Shown piece after piece: positions 488 through 32,215 of a stretch of DNA of 64,000 nucleotides. The DNA lies in assembly GCF_010365785.1 (NCBI RefSeq), contig NZ_CP048387.1, positions 682,001 through 746,000 of the forward strand, in the 5' to 3' direction. A program made the translations under genes and the position numbers. Each line of letters opens with the position of its first letter. Within the stretch, counting starts at the first letter, position 1. Origin of the DNA: Spiroplasma sp. TIUS-1. GTDB lineage: Bacteria > Bacillota_I > Bacilli_A > Mycoplasmatales > Mycoplasmataceae. Under the pieces are notes generated by a model. The model did no database searches. It was given only the letters and a program-made list of their open reading frames with translations, and had not been told where the DNA came from.

Positions 488-1012
488 TTAGAATTTGTAT
501 TTTTCACTTAATCTTTCTTTTAAAGAAGTCAAAGGTTTATACAATGTTAAAGCTATTACAAAGTTTGACGTCCCATGAATTACATCAAATGGTAATGATT
601 TAATCCAATAAGCCATAGTTGCTGGGCCATCAAACCCATACATTATATAAAATATTAATGTATCAACTGATCCAAACAAAAAGCCAAATGTTGTATTTAC
701 AGCAACAAAAACTAATCATTGTTTTTCAATAACTTTTTTAAGTAATAAAGTTATCACACATAATAAGGGTCAAATTATTAAATATAAAATAACTCAAGGC
801 ATGAATCCAAATACCAATGCTTCAAGCATTGTAAATACTATACAAATACTTGCACTCATCCATAATGGAAATAACATTACTGAAAAAGATAATAACAACG
901 TGACTAATTCAACATTTGGGATAAAGGCAAGTGCCACTTGTATTGCAAATACTAGTGCAGAATAACAAGCAACTGTTGTAATGTTAATTGTGCTTCTATA
1001 TCTTAATTTCAT
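488..1012 (-). CDS. ECF transporter S component, predicted corrinoid-specific
   Basis: This 174-residue protein has about five to six hydrophobic segments. Its N-terminal pattern (ALVFAIQVALAFIPNVELVT) and C-terminal pattern (LPFDVIHGTSNFVIAL followed by KPL) resemble the ECF_trnsprt S-component family, which binds a vitamin and docks on a shared EcfA1-EcfA2-EcfT module. That module is encoded at 29003-32215. Two in-frame TGA codons are read as Trp. A cobalamin-type riboswitch with its own terminator lies directly upstream (1030-1274), so the likely substrate is cobalamin or a precursor, as for CbrT-like S components. The substrate is inferred from regulation, not from binding residues. The ribosome binding site is weak (GTGGG). 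The lipoprotein gene follows 11 bases later. Confidence 0.72.
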
Positions 1013-1029
1013 CTAACCCACTCTAACAA

Positions 1030-1274
1030 AATAAAAAAACCACCGATATTTAATCGTGGCTTTTTTAATTAGGTATCAAAAGAATATTTCAATGACCATC
1101 TTTTTAACCAGAAAAGAATATCGCTCAAACAAATTGAGCCGGTATACTGACTAAGTTTCACACATCTAACTTCCTTCTCAGATTTACATCCAATGGAATA
1201 ATAGTTAGACAATCCACATCACAGTTGCTGGTACAGTTCAAGATTTTCTTGATTCCCTGACACTCTCTTGTTTA
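1030..1274 (-). promoter_or_regulatory. Cobalamin-type riboswitch with terminator, ahead of ECF S component
   Basis: On the minus strand the aptamer spans about 1274 to 1127. It shows the conserved blocks of the cobalamin family in order: TGTCAGGGAA, then ACCAGCAACTGTGA (the B12-box core), CCATTGG, GAGAAGG and AGTCAGTATACCGGC. Flanking AAACAA and TTTGTTT close the outer stem. A hairpin at about 1085-1118 has a loop containing CTGGT, complementary to ACCAG in the aptamer, which fits the L5-L13 kissing interaction of this class. A terminator follows at 1030-1062 (CCACGAT paired with ATCGGTGG, then a T run). The layout predicts transcription termination when the corrinoid binds. Confidence 0.88.
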
Positions 1275-1290
1275 TTTTTATTTATAAGGT

Positions 1291-1365: not shown

Positions 1366-3525
1366 TTAAATCATACAAGAATCACATTCATAGTTTTCAC
1401 TATCTTGTAATACTTCTTGTCTTATTCTTACATAATAAATTGATGCACAACCTTTTTTGAAAGCATTAATATAAGCTTTATTTAAATCACGAGTTGTAGC
1501 TGTATCTTTCATAAATAATGTTAGTGATATTGCTTGATCTACATGTTGCTGGGCTGCGGCCACAATATCAATAATTGGATCTGGCCCTAACTCATAAGCA
1601 CCCATTGCATAATATTCCATGTTATCAAAACTAATATTATATGCTGGAACATATACCCTACCAATTTTCCCTTCTTTTCTAACTTCAACAGTTGATACAA
1701 CTGGCTGTAAACTTGGTGTACAAGAGGTCAAATAACTTATTGATCCAGTTGGGGCCACAGCTAATAAATGTGAGTTGGCTAGTCCTGATTTTTTAATTTC
1801 ATTTACTAATCCAATTCATTCTTTTTGAGTTGGAATTGCAACACCATATTTTTCAAATAGCTCAATTGTTTTTTGAATTTTAGGTGTTCACTTTAGTTCA
1901 TCACATTTAGTGTATTTTTCAAAATATGAACCATCTTTAAATTTAGATACTCCAAAGTGTTTAAATGATCCATATTTTTTTGCAAGTTTATTTGAAGATC
2001 TAAATGCATGATATGCAACAGTATAAAAAAACATACTTGTAAATTCAACGGCTGTTTCAGATTTATAGTTAACACCATTAGTTGCTAAAAATCCGTGAAG
2101 GTTCATTGCTCCCAGTCCTATTGCATGATTATTGTTGTTACCATTTTTTATTGATGGAGCACAATTTATATTTGAAACTCTTGATACATGATCTAATGAC
2201 GTAATTGCATTTTCAATTAATTCTCCAAACTCTATTCCACTTTTCATTGCTTTATCAATGTTTAAACTACCCAAGTTACAACAAATGTCTTCACCAATTT
2301 TTGTAAATGTTAAATCTTCTGAATACTCACTTGGCGTACTTACTTGAACAATTTCACTACATAAGTTACTCATTATAATACGCCCTGTTTTATCATGAGC
2401 ATTTCTTTTATTGACAGTATCTTCAAATAATAAATAAGGATATCCACTTTCAAAATGAAGTTCAGCAATAGATTGAAATAGTTTACGTGCACTAATGAAA
2501 GTTTTTTTTATATCGTTATTGTCAAGCATTTCATAATATTTTTCTGTAATTGAAATATCTGACATGGGCTTTTTATAGATGCGTTCAACATCATAAGGAC
2601 TAAATAAAGCCATTTGTTCATTTTTTTTGGCTAATTCAAAAGTAATGTCAGGCATTACAATTCCCAATGATAATGATTTGATTCTAATTTTTTCATCAGC
2701 ATTTTCTCTTTTTGAATCCAAAAATTGCATAATGTCTGGATGGTGTGCGCTTAAATAAACTGCTCCCGCTCCTTGTCTCTGTCCAAGTTGATCAGCGTAT
2801 GAAAATGAGTCTTCCAATATTTTCATTACAGGAATAACTCCAGCTGATAGTCCTTCAATATTCTTAATTGGAGCTCCTACCTCTCGTAAATTAGTTAAAC
2901 AAACAGAAACACCTCCACCTCTTTTAGAAAGTTGTAAAGAAGTTGTAACAGCTCTACTAATTGATTCCATATTATCTTCAACACGCAATAAGTAACAAGA
3001 AATATATTCACCTCTTTGTTGTTTACCTGCATTCAAGAATGTTGGCGTTGCTGGCTGATATCTTCCTAGCATTATTTCTTTTAAAGTTGTTTTTGCAATC
3101 TTTAGATCACCATTTCCAAAAAACAAAGCATTCATTAAAACACGATCTGTATAAGTTTCTAAATACATTTTATTATCTTTTGTTTTTAACCCATAGGCAT
3201 TAAAAAATTTTAGTGCTCCCATTAAACTTGGGAATTTAAAATTATATGAATAAGCTAATTTGTTTAGTTCATCAATATCTCTCATTTTATATTTTGATAC
3301 TAATTTTTTATCATAGTACTGGTTTTCTAATAAGTATTCAAAACGCTCCTTAGTGCTTTTAAAACTCATATATTTTGGCATTATATTATTTTCTAAATAA
3401 CTATTTGCTGCTTCTCTATCAAGCGAATAATTGTCTTTACCCTTACTAAAAATTTTTGAACGCGCATTTAATTTTATATATTCGTCATTTTCAATATTTA
3501 ATTTATTTATATTTTCGATTTTCAT
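1366..3525 (-). CDS. nrdE: Ribonucleoside-diphosphate reductase large subunit
   Basis: This 719-residue catalytic subunit reduces ribonucleoside diphosphates to deoxyribonucleotides. Visible features are Cys177 (ISCYLL) and Cys415/416 for the redox pair, the N387-x-C389-x-E391 motif with the thiyl-radical Cys, APTGSISYL near the C terminus, and a C-terminal CDSCMI tail carrying the thioredoxin- or NrdH-facing cysteines. The length is normal for NrdE, and there is no N-terminal ATP cone. TGA codons at 1888-1890 and about 1834 are read as Trp; in the standard code the gene would look broken. The start at 3525 lies two bases after the nrdI stop. It is the last gene of the nrdF-nrdI-nrdE operon behind a cobalamin-type riboswitch. 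Confidence 0.95.
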
Positions 3526-3527
3526 TT

Positions 3528-4025
3528 TTACTCCTTAATTCAAAAATCATTTAAGATTTTTTTTAAATCATCAACGTTTTGTTGTGTTCCTAATAACTCA
3601 AATTGATACAATAGCGGAACATTTAATTTTGTAGATATAATTGGTCCAGCTAACGCAAATGAATCACCAAAGTTTGTATTTCCCGAAGCCATAACTCCAC
3701 GGCATAGACTTCTATTTTTTTTATTATTTAAAAAGTTGATAACTGGTTTAGGTACTGATCCCTTTGTATCAACAACCTTATTTCCATGAATATGACCTCC
3801 ACCATATGTTGGTGTTAGTAATACATATTCATTGTCCACTTGAATACTCTCAGTTTCTTCATTAGGGATTCTAATACTATTAATATTTAATTTCTGCACA
3901 AATCTATGAGTGTTGTTTGATGTAGAAGAAAAATAAACTAATGTTACTTTACCTTTTGGTCTGATGATTTCATCAGCACTGACTTTTTTTAATTCGCTAT
4001 GCATCTTAAAATTCTCAATCGTCAT
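3528..4025 (-). CDS. nrdI: NrdI flavodoxin-like activator
   Basis: NrdI is an FMN protein that supplies the oxidant for activating the NrdF radical; class Ie enzymes need it to form the DOPA radical. The flavodoxin-like phosphate loop is visible as YFSSTSNNTHRF, followed by TPTYGGG and the SGNTNFGDSF segment. The likely start is the ATG at 4025, inside the end of nrdF (11-base overlap), giving 165 residues. An alternative ATG at 4004, giving an MHSELKK start, is also plausible because neither has a clear ribosome binding site. The protein ends in WIKE, through one TGA read as Trp, before TAA at 3528. Confidence 0.92.
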
Positions 4026-5025
4026 CTTCAGTTTCAACAGAAACACCCATTACATATGAAGACCCATTACCAGAAAAGAAATCATGATTTTCATCAGCTC
4101 GTGCTGATAATTGGTTAAATATTTCAGGTTCAACCTTTGTTTCTTCTTCAGTAAATGGTGAATCATATCCAAGGTTTTGTAAAAATTTACCTGCGTTATA
4201 AATACTAAATTTAATTGCTTCATCTGCAATATCAAATCCTTCATATAATTCTTTTAAATATTCTTTTTCTAAATCAATTAGTTCATACATTAAATCAAAC
4301 ACAAACTTCTTCATTTCTTCTTGCTTTTCTTTTGATAAATTTTCTATTTTTCTTTGGTATTTATAACCACTGTAGTAGTTGTGAATTACTTTGTCACGCA
4401 ATATCAGGCGAATTATATCTGATGTATTTGGTAACTTATTTCTAGCAGAAAGATAGAAAGGTAAGTAAAATCCTCCATATAATAAGAAACCTGGCATTAA
4501 CGCTGCAGCTACTTTTGATTTCAATTCATCTTTACCAACATAAAAAGGTATTAAAGCATTTGCACGTTCTTGTAGTGACTTACATCCAACTACTCATTCA
4601 TGTGCTTCTTCAATTTGTTCACTTGAACAAAGTGTTGAAAATATGTTTCCATAGGATCTAGCGTGTACACCAACCATAAATGCAAAGTTTGCATATATTA
4701 CTTGTTCATGATCAGTTTGCGAACTAGGTATTTGAGCTATGTCACCGATTGTCGCTTGAATAGTATCAAGCAATGTTAAACCCGTGAATGTTCTTGTTAT
4801 TAATTGTTGTCATTCTTTTGACAAAGCCCTTCATGATGGTAAGTCATTTGATACTGGTATTTTTTCTGGTAATCAAAAATTTTGAGTAATTCTATTTCAT
4901 ACTTCTAAATCTTTTTCATCATTGATATTATTTCAGTTCACCGATCTTAATGAACCTTTAAAATTGTTTTTAACATACTCAAGTGGAGACACTGAGTTGT
5001 TGTAATATTTTTGGACTTTAGCCAT
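4015..5025 (-). CDS. nrdF: Ribonucleotide reductase small subunit, metal-free class Ie type (VPK)
   Basis: This 336-residue R2-like protein would hold the radical that starts ribonucleotide reduction in NrdE. Aligning by motif, Asp87 (LTLLD), His121 and His215 of the metal site remain. The three other carboxylates are replaced: Val118 in FMVGVHARSY (normally FMExVHA), Pro178 in LMPGFLLYGGF (normally LES) and Lys212 in RDKVIH (normally RDEAVH). This Val-Pro-Lys pattern is the signature of class Ie, described from Mesoplasma florum, where a Tyr modified to DOPA carries the radical without metal. The matching tyrosine here is Tyr125 in HARSY. Several TGA codons encode Trp. The start has a strong ribosome binding site (AAAGGAGGT). 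It is the first gene of the operon and follows the riboswitch at 5115-5353. Confidence 0.95.
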
Positions 5026-5114: not shown

Positions 5115-5353
5115 TAAAAAGCACGATTACAAATCGTGGCTTAATTAATTATAGTAAAGACAATATTAAAAATGACTTACACTACTTCTCTCTAGCCAGG
5201 AAAGAATATGTTTTTAATTAATAGGCCGGTATCCTGACTTAGATTCATATGTTTAGCGCCTTCTCGGTTTCCCAATGGATAATGCTAAACAATCCTCATT
5301 ACAGTTGCTGGTACAGTTTGAGATTGACACTCAATTCCCTGACACCTTATTAA
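5115..5353 (-). promoter_or_regulatory. Cobalamin-type riboswitch with terminator, ahead of nrdFIE
   Basis: On the minus strand the aptamer runs from 5353 to about 5215. The conserved blocks are GGTGTCAGGGAA, then ACTGTACCAGCAACTGTAA, TATCCATTGGG, GAGAAGGCG and AAGTCAGGATACCGGCC. TTAATAAGG and CCTATTAA close the outer stem. A hairpin at about 5178-5200 has a CCTGGCTAG loop that can kiss the CCAG of the aptamer. A terminator at 5115-5140 (GCACGATTxxxAATCGTGC type, then T-rich) follows, about 90 bases before nrdF. The architecture predicts that the corrinoid represses the B12-independent reductase by transcription termination. This is better conserved than the copy at 1030-1274. Confidence 0.92.
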
Positions 5354-5377
5354 TTTTTTGCTTTTTTATTTCATAAA

Positions 5378-20541: not shown

Positions 20542-22143
20542 CTATTGCACGAAAGCAAATGCAATAAAATAAGCAATAAACAAGATTGCAAGTAAGTACA
20601 TTATTCAACTTACTTCTTTACCTTTTTTCATAATTAACATCATAAATGCATATGAAATAAATCCAATTGCAATTCCGTTTGCTATTTCATATGATGAAAT
20701 CATAAATACAACTGTTAGGAATGTTGGAACAACAAATTCCATTTTAGTTCAATTAACTAGCTCTGCTTCTTTAAATAACATAATCCCAATATATACACAT
20801 GCTGCGCCAGTAATACATTGTGGTATTGCTTTAAAAATTGGAAATAAAGCAATAGCTAAAAAGAATAGTAACCCATTTATGATAGCTGCAAATCCAGTTC
20901 TAGCTCCTTGTTGAATTCCAACTGATGACTCAACAAAAGTTCCCAATGGAGTTGTTCCCATTAAAGAAGCAACCATTGTACCTGATGCATCAACAATTAG
21001 TGCTTTACTTGATATTTCATGATGTTGATTTGTATTTTTGTTTAGTTGGTGTGTGAATGTAGCAAGTGTACCTGTAGCATCAAAGAAATTCATTAATAAG
21101 ATAATGAATACTGAAACATAGAATATTGGATTATTTCAAATATCCATGTTTGTAAAAGCTGAGAATGTATTATCTCAGTTTGAAATTAAACCTCCAAAAT
21201 CATAAGTTCAACCACCGTTTAGTTTAAAGTTTGCATCATGTAAAAAACCATTCTTATATGTAGTTATATTTGTACCATTCACATTTGTTGTTACTTCATA
21301 ACCTAATCAATGGCTATCTTCTGGTAATAAATTCGCAATTATTAATGCGATTATAAACATTGCTACAATCCCAATCGCTACTGCCCCAGGTATATTTCTA
21401 AACGACAATATTAATATAATTGCTAATGTTGCCATACCTAAAATAATGGCTAATCAATTTTGTGATAAATTACCTAATGCTGGTCCAGCTGGAGTTGTTG
21501 AAAATCAACCCATACTTTGTAAACCAATATATGAAATAAATACACCTATTCCAATTCCAATCGCTAATATAATTTCTTTAGGTATTACCCTTAAGATTTT
21601 AGTTCTTAATGGTGTTAATGACAATGTTACAAATAAAATTGAAGAGATCATTGTAACTATTAATGCCCCTTCATATCCTAAACCACCTGCATTACCAACA
21701 GAGAAAGCTACAAGAGTATTAATTCCCATTGTTGTTGAAACAGCAACTGGAACATTGGCAAACAATCCCATAAATATACATCCCACACCTGAAGCAATGG
21801 CTGTCGCAAAGAATATACCAAAATAATTCATATTTGGTGCACCTTCTGTAATTGACTCAGTTCCGCTAACAAGCCCAGGTTGTACAGATAATATATAAAC
21901 TAATGATAGGAAAGTTGCTAATCCACCAATAACTTCTTTTTTCATAATTGCGCCTAAAGTATCAAACTGAAAGAATTTTTCAATTCCTCTAATGGCTTTG
22001 TTGTTGCTAAATTTATAATTTGAAGCAAACCTTTTTGCAGTTTCTTCAGGTGTCTCTCCCTCAATTGGGATAAGACTATTATTTGGATTAAAAATTTTAT
22101 TTTGAGTTTCTCTATTAATATCCTCAATATTTTTTTGTTCCAT
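20542..22143 (-). CDS. NCS2-family nucleobase permease
   Basis: This is 533 residues with about 12-14 transmembrane segments. EVIGGLATFLSLVYILSVQP (the AzgA/PbuG-like N-terminal motif), the SxTMGIN loop, and MNFFDATGTLATFTHQ with SSVGIQQGARTGFAA match the guanine/hypoxanthine/adenine branch of NCS2. These are proton-coupled importers of purine bases, which mollicutes need because they cannot make purines. An N-terminal soluble extension of about 60 residues precedes helix 1. GGAG at correct spacing selects the ATG at 22143 over one at 22176. A purine riboswitch with terminator lies directly upstream. Confidence 0.9.
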
Positions 22144-22192
22144 AATTTCTCCTTTATTTAAATCGGCAAAATCCAAGTATTAAAACTTGAAG

Positions 22193-22326
22193 CAAAAAAA
22201 GAAAAGACTTTTCTTGTTTGAGAATGCTGAAAACACATTTTACAAAACAAAAAAAGTCTAGTAACTCATAATACAGCATAGGTGCTGTGTAGAGACTCCT
22301 TCCCGTTATGAAGGATTATATAAGTT
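22193..22326 (-). promoter_or_regulatory. Purine riboswitch (U74 type) with terminator
   Basis: The aptamer spans 22326 to 22263 on the minus strand. P1 pairs AACTTAT with ATGAGTT, P2 pairs CCTTC with GAAGG around a TAACGG-type loop, J2/3 reads GTCTCTAC and P3 pairs ACAGC with GCTGT. J3/1 carries T at the position equal to nucleotide 74, which selects adenine in known aptamers, while guanine binders have C. A terminator follows: AGACTTTTTTTG (22248-22259) pairs with AAGAAAAGTCT (22205-22215), then a T-rich tract to 22193. The NCS2 permease starts 49 bases later. Ligand choice is a prediction from one base. Confidence 0.88.
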
Positions 22327-22387
22327 TTCATATTGAATTTTACTTTTTAAATATAACATGAATATTAATACTTTTGACAATTTTTAA

Positions 22388-29002: not shown

Positions 29003-29959
29003 TTAAATATTTAAAATATTATCTATTCTAGGAATTTGTATTCAACTTAAAGTGTCAACAAATGGATAACACATTAATAAAATACATGCTGCAAGTCCTA
29101 GTGAAAAGAATATTCAATCTGCAAATCTAAAGTGAAATTGACGGTAACGTGTTCTCTTTGCTGATGGATCATACCCACGTGAATCCATAGCATATGCTAG
29201 GTCTTCAGCTTTTTGAAAAGATGAAACTAATAATGGAATTATTAGTGAAACCATAGTTTTTGCCTTATCTTTTAATTTACCATTTTTAAAATCAATACCT
29301 CTTGAAGCTTGTGCTTTCATAATTCTCCCGGCTTCATCAATTAAAGTTGGAATCATACGTAAGGCAATTGAAATGATTGTTGAAAATATAAATACAGGAA
29401 ATCCAACAGCTTTTAAAGGTCATAGTAAATCTTCAATTGCCAATGTAAGTGCCAATGGTTGAGTTGTACCAGCAAGTATTGATGTTAATGTAATCATTAA
29501 GAAAATTCTCAAAGTCATGTAAATAGCATTATATAAAGTAGCTTCACTAATAGTCATAAATCCTGTTGCCACATGACCATCAGCTGAAATTTTAGCTCCT
29601 CCAAGAATTAAAATAAATCCATCTCTTGAATCTTGCTTTAACAAAGCAATTCCGTTTGCTATCATTTCTCAGTTTGCGCTTTCTTTATCATAGCTAACTG
29701 ATCCAGCAAATACATTAATAATAAGGAGCACAACAAAAATTAATGAAACTGGAATTAATATCTTAAATAACATTGTTCATCTCAATTTTGATATTGTATA
29801 CATTAATAATATAACTGGTCCAATCAGTGCAAATCCTGTAAATCCAATAGGTAAAAATAAAACAACAATCATAACTATTATCATTAATAGTTTTAACCTT
29901 GGATCCATTTTATGCATTATTGAATTATTGGGTATATATCTTCCGAATGTCATTCTCAT
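29003..29959 (-). CDS. ecfT: ECF transporter transmembrane subunit EcfT
   Basis: This is 318 residues with about five to six transmembrane segments and two cytoplasmic coupling motifs, QASRGIDF and AMDSRGYDP, the Ala-Arg-Gly type signatures that dock on EcfA1 and EcfA2. N-terminal NNSIMHKMDPRLKLL is the family opening (S.LHKLDPRxKL). With the two ATPases it forms the shared module that energises interchangeable S components, including those at 488-1012 and 54222-54908. An extra periplasmic-side insertion of about 40 residues (QDSRDGFILILGGAKISADGH region) is longer than usual. The ATG at 29953 is an alternative start. Confidence 0.94.
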
Positions 29960-29966
29960 AATTTAC

Positions 29967-31037
29967 CTACTTTTTCTTAGCCTCTTTAATTACTTTTGCT
30001 AAGTCTTCTACTGTTCTAAATTCTTTATCAAGAATATCTAAACCTTTTTCCTTTAATTTATATGCAAGATTATATAGTTTAGGAGGTTCAATACCTAACT
30101 CTTCAATCATACTTTTGTTTTTAAATACATTAGTTGGTGTGTCTTTAACAAACAATTGACCTTCTTTCATAACTACAACTTTATCAGCGATTTGCAAAAC
30201 GTGATCCATGTTATGAGTAACAATAACAATTCTCTTACCTCTTTCCTTATTCAATCTTTGGAATAAAGCCATGAAGTCTTCTTCACCTCTTGGATCAAGT
30301 CCACCAGTGGGCTCGTCAAGCACTAATGTATTTCCATCCATTGCAATAATACCTGCAATAGCAACACGACGTTTTTGACCACCAGATAAATCGAAGGGAG
30401 ACCTCTTAGCATAGTCTTCGGGTAAATCAACCATTCTTAAGTATTCTGGTACCTTAGCGATAGATTCAAACTTATCTCCACCAAGATTAATTGGCCCAAA
30501 TGAAATATCCTTTTCAATAGTTTTTTCAAATAGTTGGTACTCAGGAAATTGGAAAACTAATCCAATTTCTCTTCTTAAGTTTTTAACTTCAGGAATTTTT
30601 TTAGTTGATGCTGGAATTTGATAATTACCAACTACAACACGTCCTGTATCTGAAATCAACAAACCATTTGTCATTTGAATTAATGTTGATTTACCACTAC
30701 CAGTTGTTCCAATAATAGCAGTAATTTCTCCAACCTTAAAGTCAACTGTTGTATTTGTTAATGCATGAAATTCAAATGGTGAATTTTTAGAATATACATA
30801 TGAAATGTTTTCTAATTTAATATCACCTGTGAAATCAAAGTTAGGAGATTTTGCTGCTAACATTTTTGATTTATAAGTTGATTTAATTTTTTTATCACTC
30901 TTGTCTTGTTCAGACATTCATGTCTTAACTTCTTTTATTCTCTGTTTAATTTTTGGTTTTTCAGATTTTCTAAAAGAATTTAATTCATTTTGATATTGTT
31001 TTTGCAATACTTTTTCATTATTAATTATTTTTGACAT
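29967..31037 (-). CDS. ecfA2: ECF transporter ATPase EcfA2
   Basis: Read from the ATG at 31037 in code 4 this is 356 residues; the next ATG (30917) would drop 40. Walker A is [10 protein letters not shown], the signature is [13 protein letters not shown], and Walker B is [12 protein letters not shown], with a Q-loop at FQFPEYQLF that is typical of EcfA2. The N-terminal about 70 residues before the ATPase fold are Lys/Gln-rich and not in the family core. The start overlaps the end of ecfA1 by 13 bases, and GTGGGG may serve as ribosome binding site, so the upstream start is plausible but not certain. Confidence 0.93.
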
Positions 31038-32215
31038 ATTTGCCCCACTAATTCATCTAAGTTATCAACATGTGAAATTTTAACTCCAACTTCGTTTAGA
31101 GCTTCCTCCATTAATGTAACGAACGGAACATCAAGTTTAATTGATCTAATGAATTCTTTGTCTTTTAAAATTTCAGACGGCTTACCACAACGAACCAATT
31201 CTCCACGATTCATAACAATAACTTTGTCAGCATTTAAAATCTCATCCATATCATGTGTAATTGATATAATTGTTTTATTTTCATTTTGTCTTAAGTCAAG
31301 CATGATTTCTTTAACTTCTTTTTTACCTTTAGGATCTAACATACTTGAAGCCTCATCGAAAATCAAAATATCTGGCGAAAGAGCCAGAGCTGAAGCAATA
31401 GCAACTCTTTGCTTTTGACCACCTGACAATAATAGTGGTTCGTGATCTAAGAATTTTTCCATTCTAACTTTTTTGGCAACTTCTTCTATGATTGCTGGCA
31501 TCAATTTTGGATCCATTTGCCTGTTTTCTAAACCAAAAGCTATATCGTCTTTAACTGTTGATCCAATGAATTGGTTATCAGGATTTTGGAAAACTATTCC
31601 CATAAATTTAATAATATATTTAATAGTTGACGCACTAATTGCGTTTCCATAAATAGAAACTGATCCTTCATTAGCCCTTAAAACTCCAATTAATAATTTT
31701 GATAAAGTTGACTTACCACTACCATTGTGACCAATAATTGTTACATATTCTCCATGATTGATTTCAAAGTTGATATTTTTAAGAACATACGGATGCTCTG
31801 ATTTATACTTGAAACTAAGGTTTTCCACCTTAATTGAAATATCATTTAGCTTAGAAAGAACTGCTGTTTTACCTTTGCTTTTCACTGCATGTTTAGCTTC
31901 AGAATTTATTTTTCTTGCCAGCTCATAGTCATCTTGTAAAACTGAAAAATTTGGATCAGTTTGATTAGAATTTTCTAAAGCTCTTTTACATTCCACTTCA
32001 TTGTCTTTGAACTTTGTAGTAACAGCTATTTTTTTAAATTTCTCTTTTGCCAATTTAAATTCTAACTCAACTGCTTTAACATCATCTTTTGTAACAAGTT
32101 TGTTTGAGTACTTATTTTTTATTTTATGCAATGCTTTGGCCTTAAAAAGAACTTCACCCCATTCTGAGTTAAGTTCAATTTTAAAGTCATTTAAGTCTTG
32201 TAATGTCAATTTCAT
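31025..32215 (-). CDS. ecfA1: ECF transporter ATPase EcfA1 with long N-terminal extension
   Basis: This is 396 residues. The ATPase core begins near residue 128 ([22 protein letters not shown]) and has Walker [14 protein letters not shown]-loop FQNPDNQF, signature [13 protein letters not shown] and Walker [14 protein letters not shown]. EcfA1 is usually about 270-280 residues; here about 125 extra N-terminal residues form a charged, helical extension ([24 protein letters not shown] onward). The extension has no domain I recognise. It is the first gene of the ecfA1-ecfA2-ecfT-truA cluster, beginning after the rplQ terminator. Confidence 0.94.

Follow-up and report, generated by a model that had tools for sequence, protein, structure and literature searches.

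The window, by which the whole stretch of 64,000 nucleotides analysed here is meant, comes from the genome of Spiroplasma sp. TIUS-1 and carries on its minus strand the three genes of a ribonucleotide reductase. The R2 subunit, of the class Ie (VPK) type, is encoded by nrdF at 4006-5025 (stop codon included), a gene of 339 amino acids whose frame contains seven TGA codons and stays open only when these code for tryptophan. An earlier note on this DNA had placed the gene at 4015-5025; it had found the right gene, and what needed correction was its extent and the strand, which had gone unstated. Downstream of nrdF lie nrdI (3528-4004, minus strand, ATG start at 4004), coding for the flavodoxin activase (TIGR00333, 172 bits; PF07972, 150 bits), and nrdE (1366-3525, minus strand), coding for an R1 subunit of class Ib type with a C-terminal CxxC (TIGR04170, 958 bits). 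In such a unit NrdI would activate the class Ie R2 and NrdE would reduce the ribonucleotides. The unit is complete within the window, as had been claimed, and the order nrdF-nrdI-nrdE on a single strand agrees with that described for VPK genomes (PMC11846895).

Properties of the R2 subunit

The alignment with other R2 proteins proposed in the earlier note was run against the NrdF of E. coli K-12. Val118, Pro178 and Lys212 occupy the three columns of the ligand glutamates, which we take to be Glu98, Glu158 and Glu192 in the E. coli numbering. Glutamate is present at all three columns in E. coli and is replaced at all three in the protein studied here, while the other ligands Asp87, His121 and His215 and the radical tyrosine, Tyr125, are identical in both. 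The numbering given earlier for V118, P178, K212 and Y125 proved exact. On the basis of the alignment, ligand glutamates at shifted positions or a metal-binding site were rejected.

The protein scores 616 bits with NF010572 and 268 bits with PF00268, and it is the single NrdF of the genome. Its best match in the PDB is 6gp2 (654 bits), where the molecule is named just as a reductase beta chain and which we take to be the R2e of Mesoplasma florum; 6ebo scores 584 bits and 3n37, presumably the NrdF of E. coli, 376 bits. The sequence is thus closer to the VPK R2 proteins (6gp2, 6ebo) than to the metal-binding R2b (3n37), and it shares about 80% identity with VPK proteins, including one of solved structure. 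6EBO is named as class Ie in PMC8463856. The three residues, the difference in score between 6gp2 and 3n37 and the order of the genes all support the class Ie assignment made in the earlier note. Judged by its sequence, NrdF is a typical class Ie R2 of the VPK kind, an enzyme type that by itself is already known, and its chemistry would be that of a metal-free DOPA radical.

In order to place the VPK residues among relatives, 148 genomes of the same order were searched and an NrdF match was obtained in 86. These comprise 64 close homologues (at least 73% identity), 16 distant ones (27-36%) and 6 weak ones (E values of 1e-6 to 1e-4) that were kept outside the alignment. At the seven columns considered, D-V-H-Y-P-K-H is found in 64/64 of the close homologues and D-E-H-Y-E-E-H in 16/16 of the distant ones, without any intermediate among these 64 and 16 proteins. 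Such a split argues that the VPK pattern is due neither to chance nor to misalignment. All metal ligands are present in the 16 same-order genomes with a distant NrdF (L107-L122). Sorted by R2 type, 80 named relatives (the protein studied here and that of E. coli excluded) are divided into 8 VPK, 12 QSK and 60 EEE. A published survey counts 128 VPK genomes, 93 of which belong to the Mycoplasmatales, with the gene order nrdFIE (PMC11846895).

Riboswitch and terminator upstream of nrdF

A cobalamin riboswitch aptamer is located on the minus strand directly before the operon (5207-5365; RF00174, 67.8 bits for a gathering threshold of 31.5). The genome contains two RF00174 matches only, both in the window and with E values of about 1e-14; neither riboswitch had been mentioned in the earlier note, nor had the class II reductase encoded elsewhere in the genome. 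The aptamer is followed on the same strand by the L13 hairpin (5186-5206), whose loop CUGGCUA is complementary to the aptamer loop L5 (UACCAG), and then by an intrinsic terminator (5122-5138, minus strand; stem CACGATT-TGT-AATCGTG, tail CTTTTTATTT; 1 found, as against 0.2 in shuffles). The foot of this terminator, AGCCA (5137-5141, minus strand), is complementary to the UGGCU of L13 and constitutes the putative antiterminator partner. The CCAG/CUGG pairing between L5 and L13 is kept in both leaders of the genome; a neighbouring pair is an A-C mismatch in the nrdF leader, with four pairs left. The antiterminator of the nrdF leader (UGGCU with AGCCA) amounts to five pairs only, and the folding of the leader stretch is ordinary (z -0.71). 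A promoter-like sequence, GTGAAA-17-TATAAT, with 10 of 12 positions matching, lies past the terminator at 5083-5055, and its TATAAT (5060-5055) could bypass the riboswitch. The riboswitch of the nrdF leader would be expected to bind cobalamin and to change expression of the operon. A 2'-deoxyguanosine (2'-dG) riboswitch like that of M. florum was considered for this leader and rejected, RF01510 (2'-dG-I) not being among its matches.

The predicted B12 importer and the class II reductase

The second cobalamin riboswitch (1120-1282, minus strand; RF00174, 64.6 bits, gathering threshold 31.5) precedes a transporter gene. A terminator-like hairpin with the same AAGCCACGAT motif as in the nrdF leader is found between the two (1038-1061, minus strand); its energy is -7.6 kcal/mol and that of the antiterminator duplex -4.9. 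Another terminator-like site, at 1139-1123, was discarded as it belongs to the stem that closes the second aptamer, which leaves 1061-1038 as the likely terminator. The gene itself (488-1012, minus strand) codes for a membrane protein of 174 residues resembling the ECF S-component CbrT and predicted to import cobalamin. The sole PDB match is 6fnp, with an E value of 1.6e-5 for the single sequence and 5.1e-13 for a 12-sequence profile, the similarity extending over the full length, and no Pfam or NCBIfam model matches the protein. 6FNP is ECF-CbrT, the vitamin B12 transporter of Lactobacillus delbrueckii, which is encoded beside nrdJ (PMC5997447). A cobalamin riboswitch is present on the same strand less than 2 kb upstream of the cbrT-like gene in 17 of the 24 genomes having that gene. 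An ECF energising module is encoded farther along the window (29003-32215, minus strand) and consists of EcfT (29003-29959; PF02361) and of two ATPases (29967-31037 and 31025-32215), the latter named by eye from their Walker and signature motifs.

Other features of the window include a purine riboswitch (22249-22343, minus strand; RF00167, 51.5 bits) placed before a frame at 20542-22176 whose product resembles, by eye, an NCS2 purine permease. The segment 32001-48000 displays a G+C content of about 0.33, compared with 0.26-0.31 elsewhere in the window, and a stronger AT skew.

Elsewhere in the genome (G000:C1, inside frame L032:1111-3615) a protein of 834 residues scores 1295 bits with NF005991, for a cut-off of 854, and contains the NPCGE, CNLS and C-terminal CPIC/CPEC motifs; it is predicted to be NrdJ, the B12-dependent class II reductase. 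The cobA gene, coding for a CobA/BtuR adenosyltransferase, starts 91 nt downstream of nrdJ; its product scores 142.7 bits with PF02572 (cut-off 25.7) and 102.6 with TIGR00708, under the cut-off of 167.75 of the latter model. No other B12 enzyme was found in the genome with PF02310 (B12-binding domain) or TIGR00276 (QueG), and these two kinds of enzyme were consequently rejected as users of the vitamin. Over the 148 genomes, in hand-compiled sets that count intact and broken nrdJ alike, 31 have both CobA and NrdJ, 3 CobA only, 1 NrdJ only and 113 neither. Together with the two cobalamin riboswitches, this class II enzyme indicates that the cell does not depend on the metal-free reductase alone.

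Comparison of the nrdF leaders

Directly before nrdF, a cobalamin riboswitch over the cut-off is present in 14 of the 64 VPK genomes, a 2'-dG-I riboswitch in 10, and neither in 40. When 721 bases at each of these 40 loci were searched with higher sensitivity, weak cores of cobalamin type appeared in 4, the other 36 giving no match. Among the 16 glutamate-type nrdF loci scanned, none has a cobalamin or 2'-dG riboswitch over the cut-off. The 14 genomes with the cobalamin riboswitch contain nrdJ in an intact form in 10 cases and in a broken form in 3 (G051, G019, G079), the gene being absent from one (G056); in the 50 VPK genomes without it at nrdF, nrdJ is found in 3 (G076, G118, G140), always intact. 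Counting intact and broken genes together, the association between the riboswitch and nrdJ (13/1 vs 3/47) gives a Fisher p value of 5.6e-10 when relatedness is ignored. Relatedness-aware pairing on the NrdF tree leaves at most two independent informative pairs, all in the expected direction (p 0.5), and when intact nrdJ alone is counted a few of the random pairings gave one pair in the opposite direction. None of the 10 genomes with a 2'-dG-I riboswitch has a gene for NrdJ, CobA or the transporter.

The four weak cobalamin-type riboswitches at nrdF, all below threshold, belong to G037, G103, G126 and G057 (L218, L219, L220 and L224). These genomes lack nrdJ, cobA and cbrT altogether, and L5, L13 and the terminator are still in place in their leaders, which may be relics, functional switches or sensors of something else. 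In G079 (L123, G079:C2:110500-120800), nrdJ, cobA and a cbrT-like gene, which immediately precede an intact class Ie operon, have all been disrupted by frameshifts or stops; the riboswitch of nrdF scores 38 bits there and the cobalamin riboswitches at the locus are weak. This locus is to be read as a B12 branch caught in decay. G125 (L131, G125:C1:419500-423500) contains an open frame resembling a reductase, with 38% identity to NrdJ and a score under the cut-off of the family; this genome, which has neither cobA nor cbrT, was counted as being without NrdJ.

The terminator was assessed by folding, an earlier scan with strict loop limits having recovered it in 7 of the 14 leaders. In the final count a terminator of -6 kcal/mol or lower is present in 13/14 of the riboswitch-nrdF leaders, in 6% of 70 shuffles and in 5/36 of the leaders without riboswitch. 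The contact between L5 and L13 was looked at in 30 leaders, 26 of which could be scored, and the pair next to CCAG/CUGG covaries: a C in L5 is matched by a G in L13 in 19/19 cases, and an A in L5 by U in 3/7 and by C in 4/7. Complementarity of the L13 loop extends to the terminator as well, at its foot or in its 5' arm. When the terminator arm alone was considered, the outcome of the antiterminator test was mixed (z between -4.5 and +1.5 in 13 leaders; p 0.26 against shuffles for the leader studied here), and the stretch was widened by the 7 bases preceding the terminator, a choice made after that outcome. The pairing of L13 with its own terminator then averages -8.46 kcal/mol as compared with -5.67 for permuted combinations (permutation p 0.0009), in a set of 10 representatives that are interrelated and include one weak leader. 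G112, whose best terminator reaches -3.3 kcal/mol, was excluded from the antiterminator tests, and no clear antiterminator was seen in the leaders of G046 and G051.

A predicted B12 switch between two reductases

Quite probably, nrdFIE is one half of a two-enzyme system, the half that does without B12: the RNA of its leader would sense (adenosyl)cobalamin and turn the operon off in the presence of the ligand, and the class Ie enzyme would be kept as a backup. Repression by B12 is predicted because L13 has two mutually exclusive partners, L5 and the foot of the terminator. With the ligand bound, L13 would dock on L5 of the aptamer, the terminator would form and transcription would stop before nrdF; in the absence of ligand, L13 would pair with the terminator foot as an antiterminator and the operon would be transcribed. 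When B12 is available, the CbrT-like S-component and the ECF module would import it, CobA would adenosylate it and NrdJ would make the deoxynucleotides, adenosylcobalamin most likely ending class Ie transcription while the class II enzyme works. When B12 is scarce, the switch would open both the metal-free enzyme and the importer. Points that speak against this reading are the genomes departing from the association (G118, G076 and G140, with intact nrdJ and no riboswitch at nrdF; G056, with the riboswitch and no nrdJ; the four with a weak riboswitch and no B12 gene), the A-C mismatch and the short antiterminator of the nrdF leader, and the promoter-like sequence past its terminator.

Other readings of the locus were weighed against this one. 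The class Ie unit might be expressed constitutively from a promoter located between the terminator and nrdF, the riboswitch being a relic or controlling a minor transcript. The promoter-like sequence past the terminator and the three nrdJ-bearing VPK genomes without a riboswitch at nrdF both favour such an arrangement, which nevertheless seems unlikely: TATAAT is frequent in AT-rich DNA (5 promoter-like sites, as against 2.6 in shuffles), it or its variants have no constant position in the other leaders, and both riboswitches of the genome retain their core, the L5-L13 contact and the terminator, which would not be expected of relics. A switch of opposite sign, by which B12 would act, for example, as a nutrient signal that raises expression of the class Ie enzyme, is very improbable. 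Since L13 is complementary to both L5 and the terminator foot, its docking would free the terminator; the importer has the same switch, at a place where repression by B12 makes sense; and the precedent in Streptomyces concerns the control of a class I operon beside NrdJ (PMC4991794).

It is most unlikely that in these cells the VPK protein works with a metal cofactor, retained or acquired anew, and functions in practice as a class Ib enzyme. The three ligand positions D87, H121 and H215 are indeed retained, but the protein is highly similar to VPK proteins, a type reported to be active with less than 0.2 equivalents of metal (PMC8463856), and the three changes are common to 64/64 of the VPK genomes.

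Beyond the B12 switch proposed for this genome, the distribution of the leaders may be read as a history, which we put forward tentatively and regard as rather doubtful. Gains and losses of the rival enzyme would have been accompanied by changes in the molecule that the essential nrdFIE operon senses. In genomes that encode the class II enzyme this would be B12; in those that have lost it, the B12 sensors would persist in weakened form; and in the Mesoplasma group an unrelated riboswitch would let the operon respond to 2'-deoxyguanosine, its own end product. The sensors that have weakened may even have acquired a different ligand.

Comparison with known systems and significance

The class Ie reductase of M. 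florum resembles the present one in its VPK residues, in the retained tyrosine and Asp/His ligands, in its nrdFIE order and through 6gp2 as the best PDB match. It differs in the control region, as a 2'-dG-I riboswitch is reported before its R2 gene (PMC8872408) whereas in the genome studied here the riboswitch is of the cobalamin type and a class II enzyme is encoded as well. The genome G032 likewise displays a 2'-dG-I riboswitch at nrdF and is devoid of nrdJ, cobA and cbrT. In Streptomyces coelicolor, which also has NrdJ, a B12 riboswitch controls the class I operon nrdABS, and this operon was proposed to act as a backup without adenosylcobalamin (PMC4991794); it is of class Ia and belongs to a large genome, whereas a metal-free class Ie enzyme is encoded here in a genome of 811 kb. 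The nrdJ-cbrS-cbrT-pduO cluster of L. delbrueckii also brings together B12 import, adenosylation and NrdJ (PMC5997447), but with PduO in place of CobA/BtuR, while in the present genome the genes occupy two separate loci and the circuit would also include a class Ie operon. Streptococcus pyogenes offers a class Ie reductase that serves as a backup of a cofactor-demanding one and is repressed when iron and manganese are plentiful (PMC8463856); the rival enzyme is a manganese class Ib reductase there and a class II reductase here, where B12 would be the signal, acting through an RNA switch.

Neither B12 control of a class Ie reductase nor a comparable B12 circuit in Mollicutes was found as published in the open-licence PMC literature. 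The word 'cobalamin' has zero occurrences in the main text of PMC11846895; Fig. 1 of that survey marks other reductase classes, and the co-occurrence of class II and VPK enzymes may be visible there. What is new here is the regulatory circuit around the class Ie operon, for which the sequence provides good support. It would place a complete B12 circuit in a mollicute genome of 0.8 Mb; an older survey of 17 genomes of the group listed 15 without use of nickel or cobalt, urease being the sole nickel enzyme of the other two (PMC2667541). The condition under which the class Ie enzyme would be used is named by the DNA itself, namely the lack of B12. This suggests that in each species class Ie may stand in for the cofactor-demanding reductase present there, manganese class Ib in S. 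pyogenes and B12-dependent class II in the organism studied here.
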